Shown here one piece after another: positions 34,955-40,591 of a stretch of DNA of 40,591 bases. The DNA comes from Acidobacteriota bacterium (GTDB lineage: Bacteria; Acidobacteriota; UBA4820; DSQY01), in assembly GCA_021833665.1 (NCBI GenBank), contig JAKBES010000007.1, forward strand, positions 1 to 40,591, read 5' to 3'. Every line of letters starts with the position of its first letter. The first letter of the stretch is position 1. The notes under the pieces were generated by a model. That model did not search any database. It was not told the DNA's origin and was given only the letters and a program-made list of their open reading frames with translations. A program made the position numbers and the translations under genes.

Positions 34955-35491
34955 TCAAAGGGACTCGGAGCCGAATTCGCGTTCCAGCGTCTGCCGGGCC
35001 AGGGATGCATGGCGCCGCACGGTCACCTCCCGGAGGCCCGTGAGGCGGGCGATTTCACCGTCCTCTACTCCGAGAACGTCGCGCAGGAGGAACACGAGAC
35101 GCTGGGCCGGGGGCAGTTTCGCCGCCCAGAGGTATAGGGTCCGGATCTCGTACGGGTGTCCTTGGACCGAAAGCTGGGGAGTGCCCTCGGGAAGGTGGTC
35201 CAGCGAAACATGGATGCGGTCATTGCGCTTCAAGAAGCTGTAGGTGCGCCGCACCGCGATGGTTTTCAAGAAAGGGAAGGGATCCTGTCCGGGGATCAGC
35301 CGCCGGAGAGCCTGAAAGAACCTGAAAAACGTCTCTTGGAGGATGTCCTCCGCGTCGTGGGCGTGAGGCACCATCTGGTATACGAGGCGGAAGAGGGGCC
35401 CATAATAAGCCTTCACCAGACAGGCGAAGGCCTCCTCGTCGCCGTCTCTCGCTTCCCGGAGCCACTGTTCAACCGCGACAAGGTCCTGCAC
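34955..35491 (-). CDS. ECF-type RNA polymerase sigma factor
   Basis: This 178-residue protein has the sigma-2 region (about 20-85: AFACLVKAYYGPLFRLVYQM, DAEDILQETFFRFFQAL) and the sigma-4 helix-turn-helix region (about 120-172: LPPAQRLVFLLRDVLGVEDGEIARLTGLREVTVRRH). There is no sigma-1 or sigma-3, so it is an ECF (group 4) factor. No anti-sigma gene is adjacent. It lies just upstream of the chemosensory operon, which nevertheless has an ordinary sigma-70 promoter. GTG at 35491 has GGGGAGAGG at good spacing; the track's GTG six bases upstream overlaps that site. Confidence 0.92.
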   Translation of the reverse strand: MQDLVAVEQWLREARDGDEEAFACLVKAYYGPLFRLVYQMVPHAHDAEDILQETFFRFFQALRRLIPGQDPFPFLKTIAVRRTYSFLKRNDRIHVSLDHLPEGTPQLSVQGHPYEIRTLYLWAAKLPPAQRLVFLLRDVLGVEDGEIARLTGLREVTVRRHASLARQTLEREFGSESL

Positions 35492-35520
35492 CGGCACCTC
35501 TCCCCTTCATGCCCGGTTCC

Positions 35521-35577: not shown

Positions 35578-38500
35578 TTACGGGCCCTGGCGCCACTGGT
35601 TGCCTTTGCGGTTGTAGCTCACCGTCGTCTCGCCTCCGTCGCCGTTCACCAGGCGCACGGGCACGAAGACGCCCGCGGGGAAGAGCGCCTTGAGGCCCGA
35701 GCCCTTGAGGACGACCTTCGTTTCCGGGACGATCTTGACCGTGGCCCACTGCTGGCCGCCCACGTAGACGGCCACGTCGTCGTGCAAGCCCGACCCCGTG
35801 ATGATGAGGCGGAAGGGGCTCGCGGCCTTCTGCACGCCCGTGACGTGGGGGGGGACGGCCACCACGATAGTGCCGCTTTTCATGCAGGAGGCCGATTCGG
35901 CCGAGGCGGTGAAGGTCCAGGTGTAGGTGCCGGATGAGACATAGACATGGGTGGGGGCCAGGATGCTCCCATGAGGGCTCCCGTCTCCGAAGTCCCAGTC
36001 GTAGGCCAAGCTGCCAGCACAGCTCGTGCTGGTGGCCGAAGCCTGAAAGGGCACGGAAGCCCCTGGGGAGCCCGAGGCGGGCGCCTGGGCCTGGCACAGC
36101 ACGGTGCAGATGCCAGGTTCGGGCACGGCGGTGGCCGCGCGGCTCGGCGGGCCTTCGAAGCCGCCCGTGTCCAGGCTCGTGGCGTAGTATGTGTATTCCA
36201 CGCCATTCACGAGGCCGCCATCGTTATATCCACGGTCCGAGGGCCCTGGACTCTCCACCGCCGCCCAAGTCTTGCCTCCGTCGCCGGACCTATAAATTTC
36301 AAATCTCGAGACGGGAGCCGCCGGAGAGCCCCAGGACAGAACCACGGCTCCGTCCGCGGCCGCGGCGGCGAAGGCCGGTGGAGGATCGGGGGCGGGCAAG
36401 CGGAGCGAGATGGAGGGATCGCCCATGAGGATGTTGCCCAAGACCGACCGGGCATCGGAGGAGGGCAGAGAGAAGCGCCCCGCATCCACCAGTGGCCCCA
36501 CCGGTCTAGTTTTGGACGGGCCGAAGGCCTGCTCGAAGAAGGCGTTGGCGAAGGTGTGTTCCTCGTCGGGGTAGGCGATAGTGGAGAACCCGCAGGACCC
36601 GATGGTACCCCGGTCCGCCCTGGCCAATAGAACTTCCATGAGGGCGTCGGTGCTCACCTCGTCGAAAGCCGAGTTATAGCAACTGCTGCTCACGACGAAG
36701 GGCAGGGGCGCTGAAGGGGCCGAGGGCGTGAGGTCTATGGGGGGGAGCAGATCCACGTCCGAATCGCTGCACGTACCGCTGGTGCAATTCCGGGAGGGGT
36801 ACGAGGTGAAGAAGGCGTACTGGTTTCCCAGACTGGTGATGGCACTGTGCCCGCTGTAGTGCATGAGAGCGGCGCCCGGCCATGCCGCCCGCAAGGCGGA
36901 GGCGAAGGCGTTGGCGTCGGTGCCGTTGTAAGGAGCGTCGTGGAAAAAGAGGTGGGTGCCGCTCCATGGCGGTGCCATGTAGGTGGTTTGCAGGAGGGTG
37001 TTGGCTTGTTCGAAGACCTGCTCCCAGGTTTGGGTCCACGTGTCGGCCACGAAGAGGCCGCTCTTGTACCAAGTGCCGGTCAGGGCCTGATCCTCATAGG
37101 CCATGATCTTGGTGAGCATGCCCGCCAGTTCCTGATAGGACCGTGCTGGGAGGCGCCCCACCGCCGAATCGGGATAGCCGTCCCCGTTCACGTCGGCGAA
37201 CCAGGCATCGGAAGGGTAGCGGCCCATGTAGGTGGAATCCCCCGCGTCTTCAAACATCATGGTAGGGACCCGGTTGGTGTTGCCGGGCGTCCCCGTGTAG
37301 TTTTTGTAGTCATAGGATGCGTCCCCCACGAGGAGGACGTACTTGGGAGCCCGGCCCCATGCTGCCGCGGCGGCGGCCAGGTAGCTCCGAATCGCCGTGG
37401 GGTCCATGAGGCCGTAGGAATAGGCGTTAAAGATGCTTTCCACATCCACCGCTACTACCGTCATGGCCTCCGACCGCCTCGCCAGGTATGCTTGCCACAC
37501 GGCATCTGCTCCCGCTGGATGAAAGTCGGGATGGGTGATGATGACCATGTCCGCGGGGTTGGCGGGGTCGGGAATCGCGGGCGCGGCAGCCACATAAGCG
37601 GCGCTCGGCAGGAGCGGCGCGCTGGATAGGGCCACGAGGCGCCGCGTCACGCTAGGATTTGCAGGCATTTCGAAGGTGGCCGTGCCCGCGGAGAATGTGG
37701 CTCCCGTGAGCAGGATGGGGCGTTTGAGCCCCGTCGCCGGGTCCGAGGCGGAGAGATCGAGAATGTAAGGTGCCGTTCCGTGCCCCGGGCATGCGTACTG
37801 GGCGGAAGCCTCAACATCCGTGATGAGGAGAGTGCCTGAGTCCGAATCCAAGGTCCTCGAATAGGTGAAATCGAAGTAGTCCAGAAGCTGGAAATCGGGC
37901 TGTCCACCGGCCCCCGGTAACGTCAAGGTGACGGTGTTGGTTCCGCTTGCCAAGCCCGAGCTGAAGCTGCACGTCTGGGCCGAGAGGGCTTTGCCCTGCC
38001 AGGGACCGGGGTCGGGTGCCGCGCTGGACGGGACACCGTTGAGTGCCAAGGTGATTTCGTGCTGGCCGTCGTTGAGGCCCGCCAGGATTGCAGTGGCCGA
38101 GAGGCCCTCTCCGTAAGGGTGGGGCAGGTTCACCGTGAAATCTCGGGAGGTGCTTGACCCCGCGGGCGCGGCCAGAATGGGGGCCCAGAACCAGTTGTCC
38201 CCGTTGGGCCTGAAGTGGTCCAGCGAGTCCAGGTAGGTGTTCACCTCCAGGTGAACCGAGGCCGTGAACTGAGCGGCCGAAGGGAATCGGCCCGTGGGCG
38301 CCGCGGGGGCGGTGGCCATTCGGAGCCCCCGCAGGCCGTCGGAGTAAAGCCAGTACACGTTCGTGTCCGAGAAGTCGCCGCCGTCGAACATGGGCCGGTT
38401 CGTGATGGCGAGCTTTTGGCCGTAGAAGACCACGGCGCTGGACGGGGAAAGGGGTCCCGAGGATGGGCCCTCGATCCAGATGGGAATCTCCACCCCCCTG

Positions 38501-39222
38501 CACGTGAGGTGGATGGTCTCCACCTGGGTTCCGGGGCTTAGCCCGTGGGAGGTGAGATAGGTGTAATCCAACCGGTAAATGCCGTCCTGCACGACGTCCA
38601 CCCGCACGGGGCTCGCGCTCGGAGGAAAGGTGGACGCCCCAGAGGGCGAACTCTCGCGGCTCATCTCGGAGGCGTGCCGAAAGGCCAGAGCTCCCGTGGG
38701 GTTGAGAAAGAGGCTGGCGCTGGCCCACGGGCTGATCCCGGAGGGCAGGGGAGGGTCGAGGGAGGCGGCCAAGCCAGGCACTTCAAGCGTTCCTTCGAGG
38801 GCAGACAGAACTTGCACTCCCCCGGAGGGACTCCGCCGGACCGGATGCACGATGATTTCCTGGTAGGGGACTCCGTGCCACACGCCGCGTTGGCCGAGAA
38901 CCGCGGCCTCGCACGTGCCGGGGACCCAGTCGCCGGGCGGGGCCACGCGCCAGTAGGCGCTCGCCACGCGGAGGGATGCTTCCTGGGCCTTGGCCGGCAG
39001 GGCGACTTTAAGAGATACGACGGGAGTACTGGGCGGGAAGCCTTTTGGGGAGGGTACGGACCAGAAAACCAGTTGCTCCGGTGAAGGGGACCACGTGAAA
39101 TGAAAAACCGGCCGCCCCCCGGAGGAGGCGTCAGAGGGAGAAGTTAGAATAACGAAGGCCACCAACCCGGCGACGAAATGCCAACAGGGACGGCGGCGAT
39201 TAGATCTCTGCGTTCTTACCAC
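35578..39222 (-). CDS. Secreted C25 (gingipain-like) cysteine peptidase with FN3, PKD and IPT-like domains
   Basis: This protein of about 1214 residues has a signal peptide (basic RSNRRR, hydrophobic CWHFVAGLVAFVIL, cleavage near DASS), an N-terminal beta-rich propeptide-like region and a C25 peptidase domain (about 560-960). The catalytic pair is seen as His near 792 (MHYSGHS) and Cys near 848 (VSSSCYNSAF). After it come an FN3-like domain (PPAFAAAAADGAVVLSW), a PKD domain (AYDWDFGDGS) and an IPT/TIG-like end (PFRLIITGSGLHDD). It should act outside the cell. No C-terminal sorting signal is obvious. The start is uncertain: the track's TTG (39273) lies in the peptide gene, and GTG 39222 or TTG 39228 lies after it. 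Confidence 0.9.
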   Translation of the reverse strand: MVRTQRSNRRRPCWHFVAGLVAFVILTSPSDASSGGRPVFHFTWSPSPEQLVFWSVPSPKGFPPSTPVVSLKVALPAKAQEASLRVASAYWRVAPPGDWVPGTCEAAVLGQRGVWHGVPYQEIIVHPVRRSPSGGVQVLSALEGTLEVPGLAASLDPPLPSGISPWASASLFLNPTGALAFRHASEMSRESSPSGASTFPPSASPVRVDVVQDGIYRLDYTYLTSHGLSPGTQVETIHLTCRGVEIPIWIEGPSSGPLSPSSAVVFYGQKLAITNRPMFDGGDFSDTNVYWLYSDGLRGLRMATAPAAPTGRFPSAAQFTASVHLEVNTYLDSLDHFRPNGDNWFWAPILAAPAGSSTSRDFTVNLPHPYGEGLSATAILAGLNDGQHEITLALNGVPSSAAPDPGPWQGKALSAQTCSFSSGLASGTNTVTLTLPGAGGQPDFQLLDYFDFTYSRTLDSDSGTLLITDVEASAQYACPGHGTAPYILDLSASDPATGLKRPILLTGATFSAGTATFEMPANPSVTRRLVALSSAPLLPSAAYVAAAPAIPDPANPADMVIITHPDFHPAGADAVWQAYLARRSEAMTVVAVDVESIFNAYSYGLMDPTAIRSYLAAAAAAWGRAPKYVLLVGDASYDYKNYTGTPGNTNRVPTMMFEDAGDSTYMGRYPSDAWFADVNGDGYPDSAVGRLPARSYQELAGMLTKIMAYEDQALTGTWYKSGLFVADTWTQTWEQVFEQANTLLQTTYMAPPWSGTHLFFHDAPYNGTDANAFASALRAAWPGAALMHYSGHSAITSLGNQYAFFTSYPSRNCTSGTCSDSDVDLLPPIDLTPSAPSAPLPFVVSSSCYNSAFDEVSTDALMEVLLARADRGTIGSCGFSTIAYPDEEHTFANAFFEQAFGPSKTRPVGPLVDAGRFSLPSSDARSVLGNILMGDPSISLRLPAPDPPPAFAAAAADGAVVLSWGSPAAPVSRFEIYRSGDGGKTWAAVESPGPSDRGYNDGGLVNGVEYTYYATSLDTGGFEGPPSRAATAVPEPGICTVLCQAQAPASGSPGASVPFQASATSTSCAGSLAYDWDFGDGSPHGSILAPTHVYVSSGTYTWTFTASAESASCMKSGTIVVAVPPHVTGVQKAASPFRLIITGSGLHDDVAVYVGGQQWATVKIVPETKVVLKGSGLKALFPAGVFVPVRLVNGDGGETTVSYNRKGNQWRQGP

Positions 39223-39248
39223 CTGCAAAGGGGACGGCCCCGAACCGG

Positions 39249-39371
39249 CTAGCTCACAAAGGGGGCACTGCAAGCCGGGTTGCCGGTGCCATCCTTGCTG
39301 CTACACGCATTGGCTCTGGCCTCGATCCGTTCTTTGTAGATCACCGCAGGTTTCTCGTAGGGCTTTTTCAT
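39249..39371 (-). CDS. Putative RiPP precursor peptide
   Basis: This 40-residue ORF is not in the ORF track. It begins MKKPYEKPAVIYKERIEARA and continues with a Cys/Gly/Ser-rich tail containing Cys23 and Cys34. The ATG has an excellent AAGGAGAGG ribosome site, nine bases away. The Y-x-K-P opening, charged amphipathic middle and short Cys-containing end look like leader plus core of radical SAM-modified peptides. From memory, peptides of this form are common beside SPASM radical SAM enzymes. It lies 119 bases after the SPASM radical SAM gene and just before the C25 peptidase, all on one strand. Thioether or another crosslink at the Cys residues is an inference. Confidence 0.72.
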   Translation of the reverse strand: MKKPYEKPAVIYKERIEARANACSSKDGTGNPACSAPFVS

Positions 39372-39490
39372 TCTGCCACCTCTCCTTCATCCCAAAGGCA
39401 AATTGCAGTATTTCCTGCCGCCTGTCAAGTCCCCTTTCCTATTGGCCTCACCGCCCAAGCCCCTAGGTAAGGAACGGAACCGTCCGGCGG

Positions 39491-40558
39491 TCATGTCTCC
39501 GCCAGATTGGAGCGGATTTTCGCCACCCTCACATACTGTTCGTCGGGGCGGAGGGGATCCCCGCACTTCAACTGGGACAGGCCGGGGCAATGGGCGCAGA
39601 AGGCGTGCTCCTTCACGGTGTCCTTGAGCATGGCCGCGCTCTTGAGGTTAGCCTCCCGAGCCGCCATCAGGAGGGGCGAAGTGGCCCAGATCTCCTGAAG
39701 GGTTTTCTCCCGAATGCTGCCCACGGACTGTTTCCACTGGACGCAAGGGTGAATCTCTCCAAAGGGGGTGATGTGGAGGGTTCCCGTGCCCACGCTGCAA
39801 TTAAAATCGCCGGGCTCCCGCTCAAAAGGCGAGTTGCCCAGATTCAAACCCGAGGTTTTGTAGAGCCAGGCGATGGCCTCGTCCGAGGCCCGCAGCTCCA
39901 TGGGATAAAGTTGCCGGTCGTCCGAGATCGTGAGGACCGGGTCGAAGTAAAGGGGAAACCCGAAGCCGTCGGCCATCGCCTTAATGTCGGCCAGTTCGTT
40001 CTCCACCAGGCGTGTCACGGTGCACTTGAGAAAAACCCGGAGGCCCGACCTTTGAAGGAGAGAGAGCGCGTTCATCTGGCGCCGGAAGGACCCTTTCACC
40101 TGGGGGAGGGCCTCGGCGGTCTCGGCCTTGGCCCCGTGGATGGACATCTCCAGGCAGAAGGGCATGAGGGTCGCGAGCCGGTCCACCACGCTTTGAGTGA
40201 GAGCCGCGCCGTTGGTGTAAATACGAACGGCGAAAGCGCGATCCTTGGCAGCCTTGGCGATATCCCAGAACCGGGGATGCATGAGCGGCTCACCACCCGT
40301 GAGGGTGAGGTAAAGGACGCCCATATCTTTCAATTGGTCCAGGACGCCCACGATCTCCTCGAAGGTCAAAGGAGACTCGGCTCTCTCCGGGGCCGGCTGA
40401 GTCCGGTTCTGATTCTTGCGCTGGACGGGGTTGTAGCAGAAGTAGCAGGCCAGGTTGCAGGTGTCCGTGAGTTCAATCGACGCAAAGAGAGGGTGGCGCA
40501 CCCTGAAGGCGCTTTCGTATAACCGCTGCAGGTGCGTTCCCCGCTCAGTCTGCGCCAT
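39491..40558 (-). CDS. Radical SAM/SPASM enzyme, putative peptide maturase
   Basis: This 355-residue enzyme has the radical SAM cluster motif Cys34-x3-Cys38-x2-Cys41 (CNLACYFC), TGGEPLMHP, YTNGAAL and a C-terminal SPASM region with five Cys (254, 272, 321, 324, 332; NCSVG, HPCVQW, CAHCPGLSQLKC) for auxiliary clusters. SPASM proteins mainly modify peptides (PqqE, AlbA, anSME types). The ATG at 40558 follows AGGAG; the track's GTG at 40579 is an alternative, and the frame stays open to the window edge, so an N-terminal extension is possible. It is followed by the short precursor-like ORF. The substrate is inferred from that neighbour. Confidence 0.9.
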   Translation of the reverse strand: MAQTERGTHLQRLYESAFRVRHPLFASIELTDTCNLACYFCYNPVQRKNQNRTQPAPERAESPLTFEEIVGVLDQLKDMGVLYLTLTGGEPLMHPRFWDIAKAAKDRAFAVRIYTNGAALTQSVVDRLATLMPFCLEMSIHGAKAETAEALPQVKGSFRRQMNALSLLQRSGLRVFLKCTVTRLVENELADIKAMADGFGFPLYFDPVLTISDDRQLYPMELRASDEAIAWLYKTSGLNLGNSPFEREPGDFNCSVGTGTLHITPFGEIHPCVQWKQSVGSIREKTLQEIWATSPLLMAAREANLKSAAMLKDTVKEHAFCAHCPGLSQLKCGDPLRPDEQYVRVAKIRSNLAET

Positions 40559-40591
40559 CGGCCAGAGCTCCTGAATCACGCAGCGCCTGCA

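Follow-up and report, generated by a model that had tools for sequence, protein, structure and literature searches.

A probable RiPP cassette conserved in Acidobacteriota combines a radical SAM maturase, lasso-type recognition and kinase parts and a C25 peptidase

A radical S-adenosylmethionine (SAM) maturase of SPASM/Twitch type, a Cys-containing core and a recognition element (RRE) for ribosomally synthesized and post-translationally modified peptides (RiPPs) are combined in the sactipeptide and ranthipeptide systems (SkfB, StsB, CteB). The same parts were found in the locus analyzed here, at the end of a 40,591-nucleotide stretch of Acidobacteriota DNA (the window; contig C21 of a host genome of 3.8 Mb in 408 contigs), and this locus is very probably a RiPP cassette. 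In SkfB the RRE is an N-terminal domain of the maturase, whereas in the cassette it is a separate PqqD-family protein; unlike the SkfB, StsB and CteB systems, the cassette also has a lasso-type YxxP leader motif, an HPrK-like kinase and a C25 peptidase.

Paeninodin-type lasso peptides share with the cassette a discrete RRE, a [Y/W]xxPx[LVI] leader motif and an HPrK-like kinase, but here a radical SAM enzyme stands in place of the cyclase and B2 peptidase; no lasso macrolactam cyclase or B2 leader peptidase was present among the annotated cassette neighbours, for which no dedicated profile search was run. The literature gives this motif for discrete lasso RREs and, as YxxPxV, for linear polyphosphorylated peptides (LPP), whose leader YxxPxVLxHQxIxFET measures 16 residues from Tyr to the cut (PMC13381572). 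LPP systems resemble the cassette in the discrete RRE, HPrK-like kinase, YxxPxV leader and Tyr-to-cut distance (PMC13381572), and differ in that the cassette has a radical SAM enzyme, a C25 peptidase and two conserved Cys, and an Acidobacteria instead of a Bacillota host. Among HPrK-like enzymes, LppK phosphorylates core Ser3 (PMC13381572), and ThcoK and SyanK of lasso clusters are cited in PMC10368454 as phosphorylating a C-terminal Ser. HPr-rel-A (TIGR04352/TIGR04353) and SynChlorMet (ScmC/D/E/F) cassettes likewise join HPrK-like with PqqD-like proteins, SynChlorMet also with SPASM radical SAM enzymes; their models scored far under cut-offs here, and the present cassette has one radical SAM gene as a rule and a C25 peptidase. 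For that peptidase the nearest NCBIfam model is PorU, the type IX secretion sortase (also C25).

An earlier note, made from the letters of the window alone, had described a SPASM radical SAM gene, a 40-residue open reading frame (ORF) with a strong ribosome site and an exported-looking C25 peptidase gene, in line on one strand over 35578-40558, and had read them as a candidate RiPP locus. This layout was confirmed, with all three genes on the minus strand, and the RiPP interpretation is supported. The cassette consists of the following features.

39249..39371, minus strand: precursor peptide, 40 aa (homologues, synonymous leader changes, strong ribosome site)
39491..40558, minus strand: radical SAM/SPASM(Twitch)-type peptide maturase, 355 aa (Pfam, alignment, predicted structure)
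35578..39222, minus strand: exported Peptidase C25 (gingipain clan) with PKD domain (PF01364; start chosen by hand)
40545..40591, minus strand: PqqD-family RRE gene, 3' end only; the remainder, on contig C194, is L007:4591-4863
L007:3698-4588, on C194, outside the window, just upstream of the RRE gene: HPrK-like kinase

The end of contig C194 was found, with the radical SAM protein as query, to repeat the first 38 residues of that protein, and the window end and C194 were found to overlap by 149 bp (147/149 identical), because of which the two contigs were joined. Upstream of the radical SAM gene, C194 carries an HPrK-like gene followed by the PqqD-family RRE gene, so the suggestion that the locus may continue past 40591 proved correct. 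The accompanying remark that no RRE/PqqD gene was visible holds for the full gene, which lies beyond the contig end, but not for its last 14 codons and stop, which are in the window and overlap the radical SAM start by about 14 bp. A near relative (JAKAKG010000203.1, Acidobacteria metagenome-assembled genome WY4.bin4, here L037; radical SAM identity 94%) carries HPrK-like, PqqD, radical SAM, peptide, C25 and extracytoplasmic function (ECF) sigma genes on a single contig, in the order found here across C194 and the window.

The peptide (MKKPYEKPAVIYKERIEARANACSSKDGTGNPACSAPFVS) is preceded by a strong Shine-Dalgarno sequence (GAAGGAGAGGTGGCAGA-ATG). Residues 1-20 form the predicted leader, with YEKPAV as RRE motif and Ala20 before the predicted cut, and residues 21-40 the predicted core (NACSSKDGTGNPACSAPFVS), with Cys23, Cys34 and C-terminal Ser40. 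The boundary is placed provisionally after Ala20 because Tyr to Ala measures 16 residues, as does Tyr to the LPP cut site. Over the 20 leader codons, the window and L037 encode identical protein with 6 synonymous and 0 nonsynonymous codon differences, while the other two frames gave 0/6 and 1/5 (synonymous/nonsynonymous); since the leader substitutions are all synonymous and the phylum yielded 69 distinct homologues, the ORF is taken as a real gene. Y5, P8, E14, A20, C23 and C34 were invariant in 40 homologues.

Precursor anatomy was counted over the 69 distinct precursors collected across the phylum. All 69 contained [YW]xxPx[LVIAFY] with an invariant Pro, which is partly expected as the search profile itself contains the motif. 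Exactly two core Cys were present in 68/69, the Tyr-to-Cys1 distance was 18 residues in 65/69, and Ala stood at C1-3 in 64/69. Cys-Cys spacing ranged from 6 to 15, and the stretches separating and following the two Cys differed in length and sequence. The C-terminal residue was Ser in 65/69 and Thr in 2/69, Ser making up 9% elsewhere in the core; among the 29 precursors gathered after profile building, it was Ser in 28 and Thr in 1. Named families gave sub-threshold matches only, no NCBIfam or Pfam precursor model being reached. As in RiPP loci generally, an encoded precursor with a conserved leader and a more variable core lies beside modifying enzymes, and an RRE domain is accompanied by a leader with an apparent RRE-type motif.

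The peptide was found in 34/199 relatives in the first search; profile searches of 396 phylum genomes gave 54 genomes with the peptide and 56 with the maturase. Both were present in 46 genomes (7.6 expected, p 7.9e-42), or in 17 (1.7 expected, p 1.0e-17) when the profile-building genomes were left out, and the conservation of the ORF beside homologous radical SAM genes, on which the earlier note had staked its reading, was borne out. Several of the mismatches between peptide and maturase came from thresholds or from contigs ending (in G033 and G285 the maturase adjoins the peptide), and 8/10 maturase-only genomes had a weaker peptide match adjoining the enzyme. Linkage was assessed in 28 fully flanked loci (at least 4 kb upstream and at least 6 kb downstream). 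Within 2 kb of the radical SAM gene, an RRE was present in 27 of these and the peptide in 26; within 7.5 kb, C25 was present in 22 and the kinase in 20. The C25 of the cassette was moreover the sole C25 of the genome in 15/21 genomes, and the option that it is unrelated to the locus, which the earlier note had allowed, was abandoned in favour of a recurrent locus member. The relatives found among plasmid records, of mycofactocin type and other kinds, were all at <60% identity, and a scan of genome contigs returned one close relative only.

Some peptide genes were found at a distance. Several supposed 'orphan' peptides do have a radical SAM gene in the same locus, 12-15 kb away, and the peptide matches at L072 and L075 were not confirmed. 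In L106-L110 (G096, G136, G029, G168, G152), the peptide gene is 12-15 kb downstream of the radical SAM gene, C25 is still near the latter, and large secreted TSP3 and FG-GAP repeat proteins are encoded in between. Extra peptide copies with no maturase nearby were seen in L048 (G008:C86), G054:C15, G042:C9, G136:C199 and G184:C31, one of them after a 1643-aa PKD-containing secreted protein; these are possible substrates in trans.

In the maturase, Radical_SAM (2.6e-22) and SPASM (1.2e-8) both exceeded Pfam cut-offs, and scores against NCBIfam maturase models were far under cut-off. An alignment of 21 maturases showed CX3CX2C (C34/C38/C41) and GGE to be invariant, as were C254-X12-G267-X4-C272 and C324 in the C-terminal domain. 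The predicted structure (pLDDT 88) had SkfB (6efn) as nearest fold, then SuiB and PqqE, and SkfB was the top solved-structure match by both sequence (1.4e-32) and fold (1.6e-15). The Twitch domain of SkfB has an open Aux I cluster site (PMC6231123), with which the reduced Cys set of the maturase is compatible. The locus has the kind of maturase that marks sactipeptide and ranthipeptide systems, a radical SAM enzyme with a SPASM/Twitch domain for auxiliary clusters.

The RRE (90 aa; PF05402 1.1e-11, over cut-off) had the lasso PqqD chaperone as its nearest NCBIfam model, under cut-off. In the kinase, the P-loop Gly/Lys and an Asp-Asp pair were invariant in aligned members, and the predicted fold was of PEPCK/HprK type with the P-loop kinase core of HPrK-like peptide kinases. 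Kinase genes were found in all of 16 cassette genomes, picked mostly for having no kinase adjoining the radical SAM gene, and as 2 weak matches among 16 cassette-free genomes. Loci without a kinase were considered as an argument against phosphorylation, which was dropped because these genomes carry a kinase gene at another site, in many cases at a distance of about 12 kb. In families where no kinase adjoins the radical SAM gene, HPrK-like genes were seen in pairs, some 12 kb from that gene, at G120:C18:409-411 kb, G318:C304:98-100 kb and G042:C39:21-23 kb. In the order-level relatives L066 (G009), L112 (G010) and L113 (G011), three HPrK-like, one PqqD and two radical SAM genes are consecutive.

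From these parts, a five-gene pathway is proposed, which as a whole is moderately probable. The RRE would bind the leader motif YxxPxV and pass the peptide on to the maturase, and the latter likely acts on the core Cys; as judged from precursor anatomy, RRE-guided radical modification of a Cys core appears well supported. A Cys thioether, of sactionine or ranthionine type, is the slightly favoured product. The HPrK-like kinase would phosphorylate the conserved C-terminal Ser, a step suggested by the conserved Ser, kinase co-occurrence and the precedents above, and for which the chances are judged about even. Leader removal would take place after the conserved Ala that lies two residues ahead of Cys1. 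Outside the cytoplasm, the exported C25 may mature or trim the product; that C25 cleaves the peptide is given a little under an even chance.

Several observations weigh against this pathway. The three invariant C-terminal Cys of the maturase imply that it is not a full seven-Cys SPASM enzyme. For the kinase, fold matches ranked PEPCK before HprK, and scores of 14.9 bits against PF07475 (cut-off 33.3) and 14 bits against TIGR00679 (cut-off 240) do not place it among HPr kinases. C25 was not nearby in 6/28 loci, mostly divergent ones. Arg precedes the conserved Ala in 42/69 precursors and, not being universal, makes a gingipain-like Arg cut no general rule. The search for further cassette genes identified no dedicated transporter, as the earlier note had also observed, though C25 looks exported and the peptide carries no lipoprotein or Sec signal (no hydrophobic stretch on inspection by eye).

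In the C25 gene, the probable start is a GTG at about 39222, about 30 bp past the peptide stop, rather than the TTG at 39273 of the longer ORF; the 35578-40558 span given in the earlier note was right. Peptidase_C25 matched at 1.3e-62 (212.7 bits, cut-off 23), and the catalytic His (codon 36847-36849) and Cys (codon 36679-36681) were invariant in 21 aligned sequences, which together place the protein in the C25 family. The N-terminus is hydrophobic and Sec-signal-like, and most C25 members start with a signal-like segment. The PorU score was 173.9 bits (cut-off 420), short of a type IX secretion sortase; a link to type IX secretion found no support, SprA having no match in 20 genomes, a weak test as the SprA control itself matched nowhere. 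The peptide-C25 pair is kept in G011, where two radical SAM and three kinase genes are on another contig. In G143:C98 and G026:C13 (L073), C25 is followed by the peptide gene, G143:C98 having no strong radical SAM match there. A small protein that looks exported (cluster c12) was seen repeatedly in the vicinity of the peptide or C25, in several families (L054, L058, L067, L045, L047 and L049); its L047 member matched no Pfam family.

Within the same RiPP pathway, the modified peptide may instead act on the exported C25, and on other secreted proteins nearby, by inhibiting, chaperoning or activating them, which is somewhat unlikely. The size of the cassette C25 proteins (about 1200-1700 aa), their multidomain make-up and export are unlike known leader peptidases, a review of RiPP leader removal does not name C25 (PMC10885120), and some peptide genes 12-15 kb from the radical SAM gene adjoin other large secreted PKD, TSP3 or FG-GAP proteins. 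Against it, the peptide directly precedes C25 in most loci, the active-site residues are invariant, and no other cassette protease was identified for leader removal.

The product could also be an LPP-like phosphorylated linear peptide, with a radical SAM change other than at Cys (epimerization or a C-C bond) and the Cys forming a disulfide outside the cell. This is distinctly unlikely: RRE, HPrK-like kinase and YxxPx[VI] leader are common to both systems (PMC13381572) and a disulfide is possible in an exported two-Cys peptide, but the top match of the maturase is a sactisynthase and the distance of Cys1 from the leader motif is fixed.

Another reading takes the peptide as source of a small redox cofactor, in the style of PQQ or mycofactocin, from which the radical SAM enzyme would make one fixed small product. 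It agrees with the maturase having PqqE as one of its nearest structures and mycofactocin MftC as one of its nearest sequence families. In cofactor precursors the reacting residues stay fixed, whereas here the inter-Cys and post-Cys region varies, and no dehydrogenase was seen recurring at the locus; this reading is very unlikely. A chance ORF among unrelated neighbours, for which a 40-codon ORF on its own would be weak evidence against, was rejected on the synonymous-only leader changes, the linkage and the phylum-wide homologues (54/396 genomes).

One neighbouring gene in the window, in the same order in L037, was not assigned to the cassette.

34955..35497, minus strand: ECF sigma factor gene, downstream of C25 (Sigma70_r2 7.8e-14)

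The C194 stretch L007:447-3684, which lies upstream of the cassette, seems by the look of its sequence to encode subunits resembling 2-oxoacid:ferredoxin oxidoreductase and a protein resembling nucleoside diphosphate kinase.

Searches of the literature, largely without subscription papers, on C25 or gingipain together with RiPPs or radical SAM, on Acidobacteria sactipeptides and on HprK together with radical SAM gave no description of this set, and prior description is possible. The cassette is real, conserved and, as far as searched, unnamed, and is best read as a radical SAM-modified RiPP system with lasso/LPP-type recognition and kinase parts and a C25 peptidase. That a single RRE serves both radical SAM cross-linking at two Cys and terminal-Ser phosphorylation, with C25 as dedicated maturation protease, in a new RiPP class, is unlikely; if true, RiPP biosynthesis would have its first known C25 enzyme, as far as the literature search reached. 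The analysis defines a phylum-wide Acidobacteria peptide family outside NCBIfam and Pfam precursor models, connects radical SAM chemistry, by a shared leader motif, with RRE and kinase parts of lasso/LPP type, and raises the question of whether a gingipain-type protease may act as a RiPP maturase.
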